Part shown: in pieces, positions 1,481-36,006 of the stretch
Numbering within the stretch: position 1 is the stretch's first letter
Layout of the letters: every line of letters starts with the position of its first letter
Source of the DNA: a virus
IMG/VR virus record: IMGVR_UViG_3300037796_000063
Location: 1-36,006 of that record
Length of the DNA stretch: 36,006 nucleotides
Reading direction: 5' to 3' (one strand)
Translations under genes and position numbers: made by a program
The notes under the pieces: model-generated
What the model saw: only the letters and a program-made list of their open reading frames with translations
What the model was told of the DNA's origin: nothing
Database searches by the model: none

Positions 1481-2245
1481 ATGAAGCCAGAAACACTAAA
1501 CCACCCAACCAACGAGATGGTAACAGACACCGATGGCGTTAAGGTTCAGATGTCTCGTTATCACGAAGGCATGAGATACCAGCATTATGCCATCCGTAAC
1601 CGTGCATACGACGGGCCAGGGTGGGAGCCATCACGACTGGATGAATGGGAATACGGGCAGGAGCGGGATATTGTGACAGTTCCCACCTGTGAGTTGTCGG
1701 TATATACCTGCACGCCAGAGACCAGCGTATACCAGGAATACCCGCATGAGGTTGCAGAGCTGATCCATAAGCCCTACGACGTGATAGAGCATTATGCTGC
1801 AACGCCAGAAGGACGTGAGTGGTATATGAGAACAGTGCAAGAGGTTATGGCTCAAGGTCACTTACCAGGAAAGCAGTCACGAGAGACTGAGCGCCCGTTC
1901 CGGGATGCCGTATCATCACTTGAGCAGGCAGCAAAACGGATGGGATACGAGGTTGCAACGGCTAACCCTTCATGGCTTCATGTTGTGGCAATGTTTGCCC
2001 GTAATGGATACACGTTCACGTATCCACAAGACCGGCAAGACGTGGCAGCACATAGGGCGCTACTTCCTGATAATTTGCAAGAGGCTAGTTGGTGGAGTGT
2101 GGCACAATATATGAACGATTTAATCGAATGGCACGGAGATATCCCAGAAGCATATAGCAATATGGTGGCACGAGATCAGAGCGGTATGATAAGCTGTTAC
2201 CCATTAGCAATTAACAGATCTTTATGGATGCAAAAAAAAATATAG
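1481..2245 (+). CDS. Hypothetical protein, 254 aa
   Basis: Unknown soluble protein, rich in Tyr, Trp, Glu and His. No domain, signal peptide or membrane segment is recognisable. The start is the ATG at 1481, 20 nt after module C, without a Shine-Dalgarno site. Its last 22 bases overlap the next gene, the only junction in this stretch with an overlap instead of the intergenic module. The overlap contains nine A residues ending just before its TAG, where a -1 slip would extend it into the hydrolase frame. That makes a 254-aa protein plus a fusion product possible, but it is unproven. Confidence 0.7.
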   Translation: MKPETLNHPTNEMVTDTDGVKVQMSRYHEGMRYQHYAIRNRAYDGPGWEPSRLDEWEYGQERDIVTVPTCELSVYTCTPETSVYQEYPHEVAELIHKPYDVIEHYAATPEGREWYMRTVQEVMAQGHLPGKQSRETERPFRDAVSSLEQAAKRMGYEVATANPSWLHVVAMFARNGYTFTYPQDRQDVAAHRALLPDNLQEASWWSVAQYMNDLIEWHGDIPEAYSNMVARDQSGMISCYPLAINRSLWMQKKI

Positions 2246-2922
2246 CCTTCGTCGTGATGACGCACGGCAACGAACGAGTGGGGCATTTCGTACTTTATTA
2301 TTGCCCGTACGGGCAGACTGACAAGCGTCGCTGGGATGTGATTGTTGGCAATCCAGAGGCGTATATGCAGGGCGTTCGGTATGTTGACGAGGATTTGAAC
2401 CGTCTTTTTGACTTGTCAGAGCAGGCAGATACAGTGGAGGGGAGAAGGGCGGTTAGTTTGCGTAGACAGTTAGAGCAGTACGATCAGGTATACGACATCC
2501 ACCAGTACACACCCAATATGTTGGATACGCAGCCGATTGCGTTTATCAACAATATGGAGCCGGAAACGCTACAGATGCTTGAACCCCTAGACCTGTCACG
2601 GGTGATTGTCGACGACAATCCGAAGTACAACAAGCAGTACGTCACGTCCGTTCGTCCACACTCGGTTTGTATTGAGTACGCGATGAGTTCATATATTGTA
2701 GATTGCTCGTACACAAGTCTCGACTTTGAGCGTATTATCGAAGTCGAGCCTGCCAAGAAAGAAAAACAATTCTACCGCTCTGTGCGCTCTGCAACACGTG
2801 AGGAAGTTGGAGATGTCAAGCCGTGGGATGAGGTTACTGTTGACGGAAAACGGTACTACACATACTTTGTTGACCCGACAGAACAGTATGGATCGTATTG
2901 TTGGCTGGCGGAGAAGATATAA
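2224..2922 (+). CDS. Aspartoacylase/succinylglutamate desuccinylase-like zinc hydrolase
   Basis: The 232-residue protein carries the ordered signature of the AstE/AspA family (M14-like zinc carboxypeptidase fold, Pfam PF04952). It has T-H-G-N-E-R-V-G with His14 and Glu17 as zinc ligands, N-P-E-A followed by R-Y-V-D-E-D-L-N-R at 52-60, D-I-H at 91-93 giving the third ligand His93, and I-E-Y at 150-152 with Glu151 as the likely catalytic glutamate. Members remove acyl groups from N-acyl amino acids or cut related amide bonds; the substrate here is unknown. The length fits a compact family member. The start at ATG 2224 overlaps the previous gene by 22 nt. Finding such an enzyme in a phage early operon is unusual; it might act on a metabolite, a modified base or a cell-wall amide. 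Confidence 0.8.
   Translation: MDAKKNIAFVVMTHGNERVGHFVLYYCPYGQTDKRRWDVIVGNPEAYMQGVRYVDEDLNRLFDLSEQADTVEGRRAVSLRRQLEQYDQVYDIHQYTPNMLDTQPIAFINNMEPETLQMLEPLDLSRVIVDDNPKYNKQYVTSVRPHSVCIEYAMSSYIVDCSYTSLDFERIIEVEPAKKEKQFYRSVRSATREEVGDVKPWDEVTVDGKRYYTYFVDPTEQYGSYCWLAEKI
2232..2240 (+). other. Candidate -1 frameshift site (A9) at gene overlap
   Basis: In the frame of the 254-aa gene the codons are CAA AAA AAA ATA TAG. This contains the heptamer A-AAA-AAA, and the -1 frame is that of the downstream zinc hydrolase (AAT ATA GCC). A slip would join the two proteins into one of about 480 residues. No strong downstream hairpin was identified, so this is a candidate only. Confidence 0.35.
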
Positions 2923-2950
2923 CCCACCGCAGGGGTGTTATAAGTGCGTG
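2921..2950 (+). repeat. Intergenic module copy D
   Basis: CACCGCAGGGGTGTTATAAG then TGCGTG, directly after the hydrolase stop codon. One extra G lies in the G-run compared with copy A. It precedes a 21-codon reading frame rather than a long gene. Confidence 0.75.
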
Positions 2951-2964
2951 ATAAACAAATACAT

Positions 2965-3030
2965 ATGACACTGAACACCCACGTAACCAGTTTAGACTTA
3001 TCCACGCTTGACAAAAACCATAAAGCATAA
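2965..3030 (+). CDS. Possible 21-aa peptide after module D
   Basis: ATG at 2965 to TAA at 3030, reading MTLNTHVTSLDLSTLDKNHK-A. It sits where every other copy of the module has a gene start, which is the only support for translation. The promoter of the following small RNA lies inside it, so the frame may be fortuitous or a decayed gene. Confidence 0.3.
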   Translation: MTLNTHVTSLDLSTLDKNHKA

Positions 3031-3036
3031 TACAAT
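3008..3036 (+). promoter_or_regulatory. Consensus sigma70 promoter for small RNA
   Basis: TTGACA at 3008-3013, a 17-nt spacer, and TACAAT at 3031-3036. This is one of the best promoters in the window, yet no long reading frame follows. Expected transcript start is about 3043. Confidence 0.8.
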
Positions 3037-3042
3037 GGAGTT

Positions 3043-3104
3043 TGATCACGACCGGCGGTAAGTCTTTCAGGTTCTGTCCTGCAAGCGACACGCCGGATTT
3101 TTTT
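3043..3104 (+). ncRNA. Candidate small non-coding RNA, about 62 nt
   Basis: This lies between two convergent operons with its own promoter (3008-3036) and an intrinsic terminator. An outer stem pairs CCGGCG (3052-3057) with CGCCGG (3091-3096), followed by A and seven T (3098-3104). Inside it a second hairpin pairs CTTTCAGG (3064-3071) with CCTGCAAG (3078-3085), with one mismatch. No gene start follows the T-run; the next gene ends there on the opposite strand. It could be a regulatory RNA, or an RNA that primes or controls replication; it matches no family I recognise. It runs antisense to the region just past the late operon, so it may also insulate the two operons. TGGAGT (3036-3041) and ACTCCA (3105-3110) form a further inverted repeat around it. 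Confidence 0.65.
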
Positions 3105-3116
3105 ACTCCAATTTAT

Positions 3117-3443
3117 TTATATCTCCCTAAAATCCATATCCTGATTCTGGTACAATAGCAGCTTCTTCTTAATCCGGTACTTTTCGGTCTTCATACCCTT
3201 CACATCCTCAACCACACGTTTCCCATTCTCCAGATAGGCAAAATCCGCCCTGTATTCCATTTTGCGAACCTTACGCCCCTGGTATGTATATGAAGGGATA
3301 AGAATGAACGAAGGCTGCAATTCAAGACCAGTGATCTCTCCGGAAAGCTGTAGTAGTTTGAGTTCCTGGTACCTCCTGGCTTCTTTCTGAGAGTCAAAGG
3401 TGTAGCCGTCAATCTCGACCTTCCTGTTTCCGTATTTGCTCAT
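3117..3443 (-). CDS. DUF1064 family nuclease-like protein
   Basis: A 108-residue protein matching the DUF1064 pattern (Pfam PF06356). It has Y-G-N-R-K near the start, F-D-S-Q-K-E-A-R-R-Y around 17-26, Y-R-A-D-F-A-Y near 64-70, and V-V-E-D-V-K-G then Y-R-I-K-K-K-L. The D-x-K element (D-V-K) after a beta strand, with the preceding D-F, fits a PD-(D/E)XK nuclease fold like phage T7 endonuclease I. A role in resolving DNA before packaging is inferred. It is the last gene of the leftward operon, overlapping the holin gene by 4 nt, an unusual place for a DNA enzyme. Confidence 0.8.
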   Translation of the reverse strand: MSKYGNRKVEIDGYTFDSQKEARRYQELKLLQLSGEITGLELQPSFILIPSYTYQGRKVRKMEYRADFAYLENGKRVVEDVKGMKTEKYRIKKKLLLYQNQDMDFREI

Positions 3444-11003: not shown

Positions 11004-11867
11004 ATGAAACAGATCTATATAGACGACCTGTATATCCACAATTACGAAAAACTGAGCGAGCCGATTTTTATCAAACAGGATATTGAAGGTTTAGAGATGC
11101 CACCCATGCGGTTATCCTCATATGATCGAGTAGGGGAGAATGGTACATATATAAGTAACCAGCTCTATTCTGGTCGCCGGATCTCACTTGAGGGCGGCAT
11201 ATACTCACCGGATCGGGCAACATTTGAGCAATCACGCCGTGATTTAATCCAAGCGCTTAAGGTTCAGAAAAACAGCCTTGGCATTCCCCAACCTCATACA
11301 CTATTCTTTACCACACTTGATGACCTGTCGCTACAGGTTCCCGTATACCTCAACTCGTTCCAGATGAAGAAGCAAAAACTGCACTACATTGATTTTCGTA
11401 TTGAGCTTGTCAGCTCAGACTATAACCTATACTCCCAGACTCAGACAGAGATAGTACAGCAGGTAGTACAAAATGGCGGGCTTGTTGTGGATGTTGGGTT
11501 GCAGATAATCCCGCCCATCGTTGCACAATCCTCAGACAGTGAAAGCCTAGACCTGACGAATAACGGAGACAGCGAGACATACCCGGTCATTACACTTGAG
11601 GGCCCTCTTACATATCCGATAATCACAAATAACACGACAGGGCAGTTTATCGCTCTTGATCTTATCCTAGGCGATGAAGATAGTGCGGTTGTTGATGTAT
11701 TGAAGAAAACGATTATGCTAAACGGTACGACTAATGTGTTGAGTAGCTTCGACTTAACCAGCACGTGGTTTTACCTACTCCCGGGAGTTAACAATATGCT
11801 TCTATCCTCACGTGGTGGGAATGGAACGGTTACGTTCACATACAGAGATGCCTACCTTGGTATCTAA
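11004..11867 (+). CDS. Distal tail (Dit-like) protein, inverted in the tail cluster
   Basis: A 287-residue protein with the layout of the siphovirus distal tail protein family. An N-terminal half builds the hexameric ring under the tube (I-Y-I-D-D-L-Y-I-H-N-Y near the start, L-S-S-Y-D-R-V-G-E-N-G-T-Y-I, D-R-A-T-F-E-Q-S-R-R-D-L-I-Q-A-L), and a C-terminal galectin-like beta domain follows. It connects tail tube and tip. It lies between tape measure and Tal as usual but on the opposite strand, and its stop codon overlaps the tape measure stop by 4 nt. Transcription from TGA TACAAT should begin at the ATG itself, giving a leaderless mRNA. Confidence 0.75.
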   Translation: MKQIYIDDLYIHNYEKLSEPIFIKQDIEGLEMPPMRLSSYDRVGENGTYISNQLYSGRRISLEGGIYSPDRATFEQSRRDLIQALKVQKNSLGIPQPHTLFFTTLDDLSLQVPVYLNSFQMKKQKLHYIDFRIELVSSDYNLYSQTQTEIVQQVVQNGGLVVDVGLQIIPPIVAQSSDSESLDLTNNGDSETYPVITLEGPLTYPIITNNTTGQFIALDLILGDEDSAVVDVLKKTIMLNGTTNVLSSFDLTSTWFYLLPGVNNMLLSSRGGNGTVTFTYRDAYLGI

Positions 11868-22350: not shown

Positions 22351-22992
22351 TTAAAAATCGTTGATAATCTTCCCCTCTTTTTGCGCTTGTAGAATCTGAT
22401 CTCGGTGCTTGTTGTAGAAGGCCGGATCGGATAACTGCGAACGCTTGAACGTTGGGGTACCGCTCGGGTTGTCAGATGCGCCACCTGAAGCGCCTATATT
22501 TGCCGGTTTCTGTTGACCTTCCGATGAGGTGAACAGATACGGCTTTTTTTCTTTCAGGGTCTCAATAGCTTTAGAAACTGTATCGCTCGAAACGCTGCCA
22601 TCCTCTGACAGCTCGATTGAGTCAAGATCTGCAAGTGCGATCACTGCATCCGGATCTACTGTGCCAGCCTTCAACGCCTCTACTTGGAGCGCTGTCTTTT
22701 TTGCTGAGTGTAAGTAGAGCCCTTTTTCTTTTTCTCTCGCTTGCTTTTCCTGCTCATACAGCTCCTGGAACTTTTGATTTTCCTCAAGTTGTTTGCGCTT
22801 CTGCTCCTCCTGCTGGCTTTGGAACTCTTTGAGTTTTGCCTCTGCCTCTTTCATACGCTGGTTTACTTGCGTAAACCGCTCATATGGCACAGGTTGAAAC
22901 TGTTGCGCTTGCTCTTGGCCCTCCTGCTGCTGGCTCTGATCAGGAGCATTTGCATCTTCTTGGGTTTGTTGGGCCTGATTTGGATCTGACAT
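22351..22992 (-). CDS. Scaffold protein, GP20-like, 213 aa
   Basis: An acidic, Gln/Glu/Lys-rich protein with a long predicted coiled coil at about 30-115 and a C-terminus typical of scaffolds (F-K-R-S-Q-L-S-D-P-A-F-Y-N-K-H-R-D-Q-I-L-Q-A). It guides capsid assembly and leaves the head afterwards. The start at 22992 (M-S-D-P-N-Q-A-Q) is preferred; the upstream extension to 23070 starts inside the promoter and has unrelated composition. The N-terminal 40 residues are Gln-rich and disordered. Confidence 0.85.
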   Translation of the reverse strand: MSDPNQAQQTQEDANAPDQSQQQEGQEQAQQFQPVPYERFTQVNQRMKEAEAKLKEFQSQQEEQKRKQLEENQKFQELYEQEKQAREKEKGLYLHSAKKTALQVEALKAGTVDPDAVIALADLDSIELSEDGSVSSDTVSKAIETLKEKKPYLFTSSEGQQKPANIGASGGASDNPSGTPTFKRSQLSDPAFYNKHRDQILQAQKEGKIINDF

Positions 22993-27992: not shown

Positions 27993-28025
27993 TTGACATT
28001 GTGCAGTATATCGTATATAATGTAA
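27993..28025 (+). promoter_or_regulatory. Consensus early promoter P1
   Basis: TTGACA (27993-27998), 17 nt, TATAAT (28016-28021). It is nearly identical to 28897-28925 across its length. A weak dyad CGTAT-ATA-ATGTA overlaps the -10 box. The leader to the ATG at 28051 is about 22 nt without a Shine-Dalgarno site. Confidence 0.85.
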
Positions 28026-28050: not shown

Positions 28051-28779
28051 ATGAATACCACACAGACGGCACGCTACAAACTCGATACCAATTCCTTTGG
28101 CAATGTCAGTGGCATACCAGTAGGCTGGTACAAAATTGGTGATGGTCGCACTGCAAACAAAATCCGCAAATCTAATCCAGAGATTCCAGTATACGAGGCT
28201 TGTGTCGGATTCAACAGATCAGGCAAAAGATTTTCACCTATTCTTGTCCGAATCTCACACAAAGACTTTGAGCAGGAAATCAACGAAATACTAAACGCCA
28301 AAGAACGAAAAGCAGAAGAGAGGCAGAAGAAAGAAGCCGAGGCAATAAAAAAAGCCTTAGAGTCTCGAAAAAAAATTACCGAGGCGGTATATAGCATCAA
28401 CAAAGAAGCAAAAAGGCAGCGTGATATCCAGGCAAGGATCGCTTCAAGCATCTATGATGAAGGTGAACGTTATGGGGATGATCTTGCGCACCATCAACTT
28501 CACGAAGCCAAAGAACGCAAGCAATACCTGTATCGGCTAAAAAATACCGCAATCGAAAAGATGGTATTGGATTGGGGTATAGCTCCAATTGGTTACCATG
28601 AGTTTACGACTGGTGATTGTCTTGATTACTATGAGATAGAAGGGTATGGATTCCATAATGGAAGCTGCACAAGCACGGTGAACTTGGGTTCAATAGAGGA
28701 TGAAATTGAAGCAGATCGTAAGCGATCCATACCACCCAACAAAGCAATTAAAATTATCCAAGCCTGGACAACAGTATAA
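28051..28779 (+). CDS. Hypothetical coiled-coil protein, 242 aa
   Basis: Unknown. Residues about 1-75 are mixed, G-W-Y-K-I-G-D-G-R-T then V-Y-E-A-C-V-G-F. Residues about 80-160 are highly charged with many K, E, A and R, a long helix or coiled coil. The last 80 are mixed with F-T-T-G-D-C-L-D-Y-Y. It has its own strong promoter. An early DNA-associated or host-takeover protein is possible, but nothing specific can be claimed. Confidence 0.7.
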   Translation: MNTTQTARYKLDTNSFGNVSGIPVGWYKIGDGRTANKIRKSNPEIPVYEACVGFNRSGKRFSPILVRISHKDFEQEINEILNAKERKAEERQKKEAEAIKKALESRKKITEAVYSINKEAKRQRDIQARIASSIYDEGERYGDDLAHHQLHEAKERKQYLYRLKNTAIEKMVLDWGIAPIGYHEFTTGDCLDYYEIEGYGFHNGSCTSTVNLGSIEDEIEADRKRSIPPNKAIKIIQAWTTV

Positions 28780-28786
28780 TATCATA

Positions 28787-28857
28787 ACCGCCCCCCGCCG
28801 GAGGGTTCATATCCGGCGCATACCGTCCCATATGGGGCCCGCCGTGTGGGGCGGTAT
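28787..28857 (+). other. GC-rich structured element with competing stems
   Basis: CGCCGGA (28796-28802) pairs with TCCGGCG (28812-28818). GGGGCGGTAT (28848-28857) can pair either with ATACCGTCCC (28820-28829) or with ACCGCCCC (28787-28794). No T-run follows, so it is not a plain terminator. It lies between a gene end and the next promoter and may be a 3'-end or attenuating structure. Confidence 0.55.
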
Positions 28858-28896
28858 GAAATACACAGTCGATATATATATTAAATATGAAAACTC

Positions 28897-28929
28897 TTGA
28901 CACTGTGCAATATATTACATATAATGTAA
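28897..28929 (+). promoter_or_regulatory. Consensus early promoter P2 with operator-like palindrome
   Basis: TTGACA (28897-28902), 17 nt, TATAAT (28920-28925). A perfect palindrome TTACAT-ATA-ATGTAA (28915-28929) covers the -10 box. It drives the four overlapping small genes up to the terminator at 30013. Confidence 0.85.
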
Positions 28930-28952
28930 ATAATTAGTAATTTTATACTTTT

Positions 28953-29156
28953 ATGAATAGAAGACAAAAGGTAGTACGCAAGCGCGCAATGCTTCGTGCT
29001 CTCCGGCTCGCCTCATATTTCCTGGGCGCAGCTCTAGCAGTGCTGATCTATACCTATGTGATCGTTGCCCATGCAGGGCCACGGATCGACGATCATTACT
29101 GCCAGCAGCTGAGCAGTCAGACCGGTCAGGATTATCAGTTATGTATTTCTGAATAA
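28953..29156 (+). CDS. Single-pass membrane protein, 67 aa
   Basis: A basic N-terminus (N-R-R-Q-K-V-V-R-K-R) is followed by one hydrophobic helix at about 18-41 and a short C-terminal part with two Cys, probably outside the membrane. The stop overlaps the next start (TAATG). Size and place in an early operon suggest a membrane-acting host-takeover or exclusion protein. Unknown family. Confidence 0.65.
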   Translation: MNRRQKVVRKRAMLRALRLASYFLGAALAVLIYTYVIVAHAGPRIDDHYCQQLSSQTGQDYQLCISE

Positions 29157-29518
29157 TGGCAAGCTCTAAAAAAATAAACAGACACATGTACCGGCTTATC
29201 AAGCAAGGCATTAAGTCAGGAGCAAGTCAGAGGGTTCTAGGCAGAACCTATGGAGTATCCCAAACCATCTGCTGTCACATAAACAGATCTCGTAGTTATG
29301 AGGATTTTGAGCAAATCCGGAATAAATCTTTTTCGTCTTTCGGAAAGCCCAAACACTCGAAACTGGTGCAGTCTGTCAGAATGCTTGCAATTGGTGCGGC
29401 AATTGGTCTAATAGTTAGCACCATATCAGCTATTATCGTTTTTACACCTTTTGCAATCGAGGTCGTTGTAGGTCTGATGCTTGGCTCTTTATTAATAATT
29501 CTTATCAATCTTATATGA
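29156..29518 (+). CDS. HTH protein with two C-terminal membrane helices, 120 aa
   Basis: Residues about 10-50 form a helix-turn-helix (G-A-S-Q-R-V-L-G-R-T-Y-G-V-S-Q-T-I-C-C-H-I), like Hin-type or homing repressors, followed by two hydrophobic helices (about 72-94 and 96-119). A DNA-binding head tethered to the membrane would be unusual and could anchor or sense. Starts and stops of neighbours overlap by 1-4 nt, indicating coupled translation. Confidence 0.65.
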   Translation: MASSKKINRHMYRLIKQGIKSGASQRVLGRTYGVSQTICCHINRSRSYEDFEQIRNKSFSSFGKPKHSKLVQSVRMLAIGAAIGLIVSTISAIIVFTPFAIEVVVGLMLGSLLIILINLI

Positions 29519-29790
29519 ACAATCAAAAAAAAGCCCCGGCAGGAACCGGGACTCAGGAAACAAAAACAGTTGTCTCTGATGAGAGAAACACCATTTTATC
29601 TCAAAAGTATCACGATATCAAGGTCTTGATCGACGCACTCGAGAATCGTCTACGATTCTATGATTTGAGTGATTTTGAGTATCGCCTGATGAGTGTGAGA
29701 TTACATGTTGCGCAGGCTCTTGCTGAGTGTTACTGGCAGGAGATGTTGACCACACACCGGAAGTGCGGTGAAAGGGGGATGGTTTTGTGA
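29515..29790 (+). CDS. Hypothetical protein, 91 aa
   Basis: An N-terminal polar, disordered-looking stretch (about 1-22) is followed by two or three helices with many Leu, Tyr and Arg. No known domain. Start and stop overlap neighbouring genes (ATGA at both ends), so it belongs to the small-gene operon under P2. Confidence 0.7.
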   Translation: MNNQKKAPAGTGTQETKTVVSDERNTILSQKYHDIKVLIDALENRLRFYDLSDFEYRLMSVRLHVAQALAECYWQEMLTTHRKCGERGMVL

Positions 29791-29927
29791 ACGATTACAC
29801 ACCATTTGGTAACCCAGATAAACACCTGTACTGCAAATGCGGCTCATCACACGCTATGTGCGTCTGTGAGGAAGATGAAGAGAAGCCAGAACGAGAGGAT
29901 ATTGAATGGTGGGAAGATGCCCCGTAG
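29787..29927 (+). CDS. Cys-rich mini-protein, 46 aa (GTG start)
   Basis: GTG at 29787 overlaps the previous stop, with a GGGGGAT stretch upstream as a possible ribosome binding site. It reads Y-C-K-C-G-S-S-H-A-M-C-V-C then a very acidic tail with Trp-Trp. The C-x-C ... C-x-C set may bind zinc. It is the last gene before the strong terminator. Confidence 0.65.
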   Translation: MNDYTPFGNPDKHLYCKCGSSHAMCVCEEDEEKPEREDIEWWEDAP

Positions 29928-29932
29928 AGGGT

Positions 29933-30013
29933 TACCAGCTTGCGAGCTGGTAGAGGTGCGGCAGTGATGACCATTGGCTCTGAGCTTCCGCATCTTTACC
30001 AGCTCGTTTTTTT
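29933..30013 (+). terminator. Strong intrinsic terminator with competing antiterminator hairpin
   Basis: The terminator stem pairs 29943-29961 with 29988-30006 over 19 positions, with two G-U wobbles, followed by seven T (30007-30013). An upstream segment TACCAGCT (29933-29940) duplicates part of the 3' arm and can pair instead with AGCTGGTA (29945-29952), a perfect 8-bp hairpin with loop TGCG. The two structures exclude each other, the layout of an attenuator. The 26-nt terminator loop is unusually long. Confidence 0.8.
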
Positions 30014-30100
30014 ACTGCATAGTTTTATATCTCCATAATTTTACAAAACTTCACATAATTTCACGGGAAGGTTAAATTATGAATCTCCCTAAACTCTCTT

Positions 30101-30384
30101 GCATGAAATCATGAAATCACAAACACAAAAAAATGTCGTGATTTCTTAATAGATTATTCCAACAGTGAAAACACACTCCAGAAGTGATGAAATCATGAAA
30201 TCATGAAATTTTGAAAATAAAAAGAAAAAGAGAAGAGAAAAGAAGAAGAGAAAGAAGAAAAATAATATATATAATATATATATCATGATTTTATATATAT
30301 TATATATATTTTATTCTTTTCTGACAGTCCATTAAGAAATCACGCTTACCGTGATTTCATGTGATTTCATTGATTTCATCAAAA
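30101..30384 (+). other. Candidate replication origin (iterons, purine tract, AT-rich DNA)
   Basis: The 8-bp word TGAAATCA occurs in tandem at 30104 and 30112, then at 30188 and 30196, with a near copy at 30204. Its reverse TGATTTCA occurs at 30352, 30362 and 30371, with near copies at 30139 and 30335. Between the two groups lie a 50-nt purine-only tract (about 30213-30262) and an AT-only stretch (about 30263-30310). This 400-nt gap holds no gene. The primase gene follows directly. Iterons, melting region and neighbouring primase are the normal features of an origin. Confidence 0.65.
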
Positions 30385-30413
30385 TTGACATCGACAAGAC
30401 AAGATGATAATAT
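30385..30413 (+). promoter_or_regulatory. Consensus promoter for leaderless 61-aa gene
   Basis: TTGACA (30385-30390), 17 nt, TAATAT (30408-30413) with TGA in front, six nt, then the ATG at 30420. The first 15 bases, TTGACATCGACAAGA, repeat exactly at 30555. Confidence 0.85.
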
Positions 30414-30419
30414 ACACGT

Positions 30420-30605
30420 ATGGATATAACACTTAAGGAACACATGACAAAAATGCGTAAACTTCGAATGCTAAAAACTACACCCGAACAGAGAAAAGCA
30501 AGTGCAAAAAAAGCCGTAGAAGCAAGAATAAAAAAATATAATCAGAAAAGACGCTTGACATCGACAAGAGACGATGATACTATAAAAGAATGTTCAAACA
30601 GATAG
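30420..30605 (+). CDS. Small basic protein, 61 aa
   Basis: Very rich in Lys and Arg, e.g. R-K-A-S-A-K-K-A-V-E-A-R-I-K-K-Y-N, forming one long helix, and likely nucleic-acid binding. It lies between the origin-like region and the primase gene; its 3' end contains the primase promoter and overlaps the primase start in another frame. Origin binding or loading is suggested by position alone. Confidence 0.6.
   Translation: MDITLKEHMTKMRKLRMLKTTPEQRKASAKKAVEARIKKYNQKRRLTSTRDDDTIKECSNR
30555..30583 (+). promoter_or_regulatory. Consensus promoter for leaderless primase mRNA
   Basis: TTGACA (30555-30560), 17 nt, TACTAT (30578-30583) with TGA in front, six nt, then the ATG at 30590. It is a near copy of the promoter at 30385. 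Confidence 0.85.
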
Positions 30606-34647: not shown

Positions 34648-35034
34648 ATGCAAAACACAAGAGAAGAATTCAAAAAACGGGTTATTGAGTTGATACATGG
34701 TTTACCGTACAAAAAGGCGATTAAAAAAGAGCGTCAAGCGTCTTTTGTGACCATAGAAATGGTCAGGCAGGTGACTGGATATTTTGAGAATGGCAAATAT
34801 TGGGAAGTATATCCAATCACAATAGGCCGAGTTATGCAGGCGTTTAAAAATAATAATATAGCATTATATCTATCATTAATGAATTTAATTGCTTTCCATG
34901 ATTTTAATAAAAACGAAGGTGGGAGAGATACTGATATAGAATGGAAACTAATAAAAGAGTATGGCGAAGAATGCACAGACGACGATCAAAAAATAGAAAC
35001 CATTGAGAAGTTGTACAGTTTGTTGTCTAAGTGA
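34648..35034 (+). CDS. Hypothetical protein, 128 aa (paralogue of 1035-1433)
   Basis: Shares its first ~65 and last ~25 residues with the 1035 protein, while residues about 70-100 (N-N-N-I-A-L-Y-L-S-L-M-N-L-I-A-F-H) are unrelated. The leader ATTATAAACATTACACAAAT matches the one before 1481 and 35667. Unknown function; duplication with a replaced middle suggests diversification of a binding part. Confidence 0.75.
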   Translation: MQNTREEFKKRVIELIHGLPYKKAIKKERQASFVTIEMVRQVTGYFENGKYWEVYPITIGRVMQAFKNNNIALYLSLMNLIAFHDFNKNEGGRDTDIEWKLIKEYGEECTDDDQKIETIEKLYSLLSK

Positions 35035-35666: not shown

Positions 35667-36006
35667 ATGACAAAACAAGAAGTAGCAGAAAGAGTGCTAC
35701 AAAACGGTAAACCTTTAGATCTATCTAAGTTCGAGTGGGATGAAGACGTGCTTGTATTTGCAACTATCGAGAGCGATCTATCTTTGGATTTTAGTGATTT
35801 TTCAAATTGCACGTTCAAAACAGGATCAGGTTGCACGTTCAAGACAGGATCAGGTTGCACGTTCGATACAGGTTTAGGTTGCACGTTCGATACAGGCCCA
35901 GACTGCACGTTCGATACAGGTTCTGATTGCACATTCAAAACAAGTTCAAATTGCACGTTCAAGACAGGATCACACTGCACGTTCGATACAGGAGCACACT
36001 GTACGT
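35667..36006 (+). CDS. Octapeptide-repeat protein, 5' part (continues at the left end)
   Basis: ATG at 35667, then a non-repeat N-terminal domain of about 46 residues (T-K-Q-E-V-A-E-R-V-L-Q-N-G-K) rich in Asp and Glu, then the same C-T-F-x-T-G-S-x repeats to the window end. Joined through the 127-nt match it continues at base 323 in frame, giving 181 residues; joined at the first copy of the block it gives 245 residues. A direct join of base 36006 to base 1 would be out of frame. Confidence 0.8.
   Translation, partial: MTKQEVAERVLQNGKPLDLSKFEWDEDVLVFATIESDLSLDFSDFSNCTFKTGSGCTFKTGSGCTFDTGLGCTFDTGPDCTFDTGSDCTFKTSSNCTFKTGSHCTFDTGAHCT
35803..36006 (+). repeat. 24-nt tandem coding repeat array (right end)
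   Basis: Eight or so 24-nt units; 35880-36006 is identical to 196-322, and 35877-35992 to 1-116. The match of 127 nt equals a common assembler k-mer, so copy number is uncertain. Confidence 0.85.

Follow-up and report, generated by a model that had tools for sequence, protein, structure and literature searches.

Within the window, which is the entire virus record IMGVR_UViG_3300037796_000063 (36,006 bases), the early and the late operon converge between positions 2922 and 3117, and the gap between them holds a near-consensus promoter that is followed shortly afterwards by an intrinsic terminator. As both elements are credible and no gene lies between them, a short transcript from this promoter is likely on the strength of the sequence. 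The role that we tentatively assign to it, with somewhat less than even confidence, is that of a noncoding RNA of about 62 nt that would start from an internal promoter, share the terminator of the early operon, be antisense to the tail of the late mRNA and, by pairing with this tail, expose it to trimming by RNase III. A first-pass annotation of the same DNA had read the element as a small RNA, and that reading is partly supported.

Layout of the Junction Between Early and Late Operons

The early genes occupy the + strand, beginning at about 28051 and continuing across the record ends as far as 2922, and the late genes lie mostly on the − strand, from 27986 down to 3117. The last full-length early gene (2224..2922, +) encodes an aspartoacylase/succinylglutamate desuccinylase-like protein (Pfam PF24827, 1.1e-14) for which no match was found among the phage records searched. 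The last late gene (3117..3443, −; stop codon at 3117-3119) belongs to the DUF1064/PHROG Holliday junction resolvase family. At the end of the aspartoacylase-like gene lies one copy (2919..2948, +) of the TAACCC-ACCGCA-GGGTGTTATAAGTGCG module found at early gene boundaries. It is followed, at the usual spacing, by the ATG of a possible 21-codon ORF (2965..3030, +), the start context of which is like that of other early genes. No homologue of this ORF was found, and its status as a gene is putative. Its final codons hold the -35 element and the spacer of the promoter, and since these overlap an ORF behind the module at 2919, the promoter (3008-3036) falls within the 3′-terminal part of the last early transcript. 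The description of the element as a self-standing small RNA therefore holds with regard to its own promoter and terminator but not with regard to its independence, because it sits in the 3′ end of that transcript, over the end of a possible ORF, and ends at a terminator that the same transcript needs.

On the + strand, the module TAACCC-ACCGCA-GGGTGTTATAAGTGCG recurs at 526, 991, 1431, 2919, 35034, and 35613, all of which are early gene boundaries. It is situated 40-54 nt upstream of the next ATG, contains the stop codons of the upstream genes, and can fold into a small hairpin whose loop is ACCGCA.

Promoter and Predicted RNA

The promoter (3008..3036, +) is of the sigma-70 type with an 11/12 match and consists of the -35 hexamer TTGACA (3008-3013), a spacer of 17 nt, and the -10 hexamer TACAAT (3031-3036), as read directly from the letters. 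The exact form TTGACA-17-TANNNT occurs seven times in the window (six on the + and one on the − strand), compared with an expectation of 0.52. Besides 3008, the + strand set comprises the sites at 27993, 28897, 30385, 30555, and 32724, each of which directly precedes early genes; 3008 is the only one with no gene behind it. Because five other sites of the same form directly precede early genes, the sequence at 3008 is likely to be a working promoter as well.

Two promoters of this set, at 30385 and 30555 (30385-30420 and 30555-30590, +), have a -10 element that ends exactly seven bases ahead of an ATG, and the mRNAs that start from them are probably leaderless early mRNAs. A stretch of about 390 bases (30030-30420, +), which is AT-rich and noncoding and contains ATGAAATC repeats as well as a long TATATA palindrome, is a candidate for the replication origin.

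From the position of the -10 element and the end of the T-run, a short noncoding RNA of about 62 nt is predicted (3043..3104, +). The annotated succession of TTGACA-17-TACAAT and, about 60 nt later, a nested hairpin with seven T, without a gene in between, was found to be correct base for base, the distance between the -10 element and the T-run being 61 nt. If a unit is defined as a promoter that matches in 11 or more of 12 positions, a hairpin of -16 kcal/mol or lower, and a T-run, all within 160 nt, one such unit exists in the window and none in 120 Markov-simulated genomes. The fold of the 62-nt RNA (-20.8 kcal/mol, z -2.28), which 5 of 200 shuffled sequences equal, is only moderately unusual, and this counts against the antisense reading. 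A leaderless peptide starting from TTG at 3042 was considered and rejected, as its frame is open through the terminator, so that the RNA would end inside the frame, and a leaderless start at TTG is not expected.

Terminator and Extended Dyad

The intrinsic terminator (3052..3104, +) is comprised of a nested hairpin (3052-3096, -19.7 kcal/mol), one A, and a T7 run (3098-3104). Both stems proposed by the first-pass annotation are present; the outer one pairs CCGGCG (3052-3057) with CGCCGG (3091-3096), and the inner one pairs CTTTCAGG (3064-3071) with CCTGCAAG (3078-3085), with one T/C mismatch. Its observation that the T-run ends 12 nt before the opposing late operon is equally exact (T7 to 3104, stop codon at 3117-3119). 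By position, this GC-rich hairpin leading into a U-run is the first strong + strand terminator past the early operon, and it probably also ends the last early transcript. That this transcript should need a terminator at 3104 is expected, since the other early unit that was read, from 28897 to 29927, likewise finishes with a long-stem T7 terminator (29943-30013, -40.4 kcal/mol). The latter is far stronger than the hairpin at 3052-3096, and to call the element the clearest noncoding gene in the window was wrong as a claim about structure. Since the scaffold gene region also contains, at 22544, a hairpin with T7 that folds at -20.9 kcal/mol, the strength of the terminator at 3104 is unexceptional by itself.

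The need of the early transcript for a terminator and the comparable hairpin at 22544 fit well with a plain intrinsic terminator of the last early unit, the promoter-like sequence being fortuitous or left over from a gene since lost, and any short RNA being a by-product. We consider this explanation almost as likely as the antisense RNA, and it also gains from the position of the -35 element and spacer inside the possible 21-codon ORF and from the lack of conservation among the relatives searched. It has to face, however, that promoters of at least 11/12 are expected about 0.6 to 0.8 times over the complete 36 kb when both strands are counted, and thus about 0.001 times in this gap, and that five gene promoters have exactly the same form as this one. 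With an ordinary intrinsic terminator, the element has in common the GC-rich hairpin and T7 behind the last early gene, but it differs in the near-consensus promoter that ends 61 nt before the T-run and in a hairpin that is nested and 45 nt long instead of short.

The inverted repeat is longer than had been annotated, as outer arms, TGGAGT (3036-3041) and ACTCCA (3105-3110), extend the dyad to 3036..3110. Both arms lie outside the predicted RNA and are unusable by the short RNA itself. On the late strand, the extended structure (3027-3120) reaches a fold z of -4.05 compared with the z of -2.28 for the 62-nt RNA on its own. A better fold on the late strand, with outer arms that the RNA does not contain, would suit a dyad that mainly serves the late mRNA, as a 3′-end hairpin for its protection or processing, the + strand RNA being incidental. 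Such a role is rather unlikely, as the late strand has no U-run and therefore no intrinsic terminator there, the outer stem spans 6 bp across a large internal loop, the extended repeat is not outstanding in the genome as a DNA inverted repeat by alignment score, and the promoter would be left unexplained.

Host and Relatives

Alignment of the terminase large subunit identifies relatives in three bacterial genomes (57%, 39%, and 41% identity), which carry the labels Daviesbacteria, Woesebacteria, and Patescibacteria, as well as viral contigs with up to 62% identity. Because these relatives of the terminase lie in Patescibacteria-type genomes, gene kinship suggests that the host is most likely a patescibacterium. 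Small RNAs that derive from mRNA 3′ ends by an internal promoter usually act on their targets with Hfq or ProQ. Hfq was detected in none of the 145 genomes of the inferred host phylum by a search whose controls, among them E. coli and B. subtilis, were positive, and RNase III is encoded in 137 of the 145.

Records of relatives were taken whole or in overlapping pieces (1.6 Mb of sequence in total), and no homologue of the RNA was found in them with blastn-short or nhmmer. Nucleotide searches of phage records found no homologue either, the only matches being short and due to chance (E 4), and an exact 20-mer had no match in IMG/VR. Covariance-model searches assign the RNA to no Rfam family, as the window holds no match that reaches a gathering score and 2900-3200 has none even with E values of up to 5. 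Searches via the aspartoacylase-like protein and the amidase returned no relatives. The relatives found through DUF1064 (L005-L016) were discarded as junction comparators, since their gene contexts are different and uninformative on the junction. In relative G025, the late operon likewise converges with opposing genes; its junction, the only one of a relative examined in full, contains no promoter-terminator unit. The unit at 3008-3104 appears to be a singleton as far as the collections searched go, and both the missing homologues, in relatives as in Rfam, and the G025 junction count against the antisense reading.

Near-consensus promoters with an intrinsic-terminator-like hairpin 45-79 nt on are present directly before the portal gene in L019 (3155, +), L021 (6474, +), and L092 (9385, −). 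In sequence and in place these are unrelated to the unit at 3008-3104. In these three Patescibacteria-type phages, they look like a late leader needing antitermination, comparable to lambda pR′-tR′.

Comparison With Known Small RNAs

The promoter of DapZ is located just upstream of the dapB stop codon, and DapZ shares the intrinsic terminator of the mRNA (PMC9438474). The predicted RNA resembles the 3′-end sRNAs DapZ and MicL in that, by position, it has its intrinsic terminator in common with the upstream mRNA. Its promoter may also be placed as theirs are, within an upstream coding sequence, the -35 element and spacer overlapping the end of the putative ORF 2965-3030. It differs from them in belonging to a phage, in an upstream ORF that has 21 codons and is uncertain, in a likely host phylum where Hfq was not found, and in that no target was found.

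The OOP RNA of lambda is a short transcript that starts from a promoter of its own, ends at its own terminator, and runs against the 3′ end of an oppositely directed message (PMC5869508). It overlaps 52 bases of the cII coding sequence (PMC5869508) and is described as antisense to the cII mRNA (PMC5869508, PMC12197685). An own promoter and an intrinsic terminator, here predicted from the letters of the DNA, the position facing the 3′ end of an opposing message, and the availability of RNase III in the inferred host phylum are shared with OOP. In contrast to OOP, which reaches the cII coding sequence, the RNA considered here would end 12 nt before the late coding sequence is reached (stop codon at 3117-3119), and the surrounding genes are unrelated; membership in the OOP family is rejected because the opposing coding sequence is not reached. 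In phage PAK_P4, the endolysin gene has an antisense RNA, PAK_P4as15 (PMC12197685). The antisense orientation at phage late or lysis genes is similar, but the RNA from 3008 would lie beyond the last stop codon of the late operon and not over an endolysin gene. The phage small RNAs in the literature consulted come from phages of cultured Proteobacteria.

Possible Pairing With the Late mRNA

In the antisense reading, which we prefer with the reserve expressed above, the noncoding RNA of about 62 nt would be initiated from the promoter in the 3′-terminal part of the last early transcript and would stop at the early operon's own intrinsic terminator, a layout as in 3′-end sRNAs with an internal promoter. 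No strong − strand terminator was found between 3117 and 2922, and the late mRNA is therefore expected to overlap with the RNA; it would probably read through the unit, so that its 3′ tail would carry a perfect 62-nt complement. Provided that it extends past 3104, the late mRNA is the sole certain complement of the RNA. Pairing of the RNA with this tail would, as the most likely effect, allow RNase III to cut or trim it, and the terminator would meanwhile block early polymerases from entering the lysis genes. The sequence establishes the signals, how rare they are, and how they are arranged; promoter firing, late read-through, pairing of both RNAs, and the relevance of this pairing are what we infer.

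This reading is supported by a promoter and a terminator that are both confirmed and jointly rare, by a promoter form common to five early-gene promoters, and, in the searched genomes of the inferred host phylum, by the presence of RNase III and the lack of any Hfq hit. The end of the RNA 12 nt before the late coding sequence argues against it, since pairing would touch only the untranslated tail of the late mRNA.

If the RNA is made, it may instead act in trans on host mRNAs, by way of its open 5′ end (UGAUCACGA) or its loop, as the nine bases at the 5′ end and the loop are predicted to be unpaired. We regard this as very unlikely, given that Hfq was not found in the inferred host phylum and that the translation starts of the phage (46 used) pair no better with the RNA than with shuffled RNAs, 34% of which do as well; the longest perfect match to these 46 starts is 7 nt, compared with 7.8 nt for shuffles.

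A more far-reaching version of the antisense reading, which we judge unlikely, would see a dedicated RNA of a phage infecting Hfq-less Patescibacteria that pairs with the tail of the late mRNA where the operons converge and, via RNase III, contributes to the timing or trimming of late (lysis) expression. If true, it would be a regulatory RNA that works without Hfq, in a group of phages where literature searches turned up none. Even the formation of the transcript would provide a concrete, short, and testable RNA in a Patescibacteria phage that bears on RNA regulation without the chaperone Hfq. If it is not made, what remains is an ordinary terminator, which would caution that pairs of promoter and terminator spotted by eye require transcript support.

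Other Features of the Genome

A second promoter-terminator unit (29621-29525, −), with TTGATA-17-TAAAAT and a hairpin plus T8 60 nt on, is antisense to the start of gene 29515-29790. The very strong long-stem T7 terminator that follows gene 29787-29927 has a competing upstream hairpin, ACCAGCTTGCGAGCTGGT, which shares GAGCTGGT, and this region (29935-30013, +) is possibly a terminator/antiterminator switch. Rfam matches near 29525-29675 and 29943-30006 are far under gathering scores. Between gene 28051-28779 and the promoter at 28897, two adjoining GC-rich hairpins without a T-run are located (28796-28858, +), and the 96-nt region that contains them folds with -44.4 kcal/mol (z -3.5).

A gene of 24-nt repeats that code for CTFDTGxx octapeptides spans the record ends (35667-36006 and 1-528, +). 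As it runs across the ends, it suggests a circular genome that was opened, and perhaps collapsed, inside this repeat gene. Two early genes (1035-1433 and 34648-35034, +) are recent paralogues, with about 90% DNA identity over long stretches. The gene for the distal tail protein Dit (11004-11867, +) is inverted within the late operon. Its homologue in relatives G031, G032, and G045 has the same orientation as the terminase gene.
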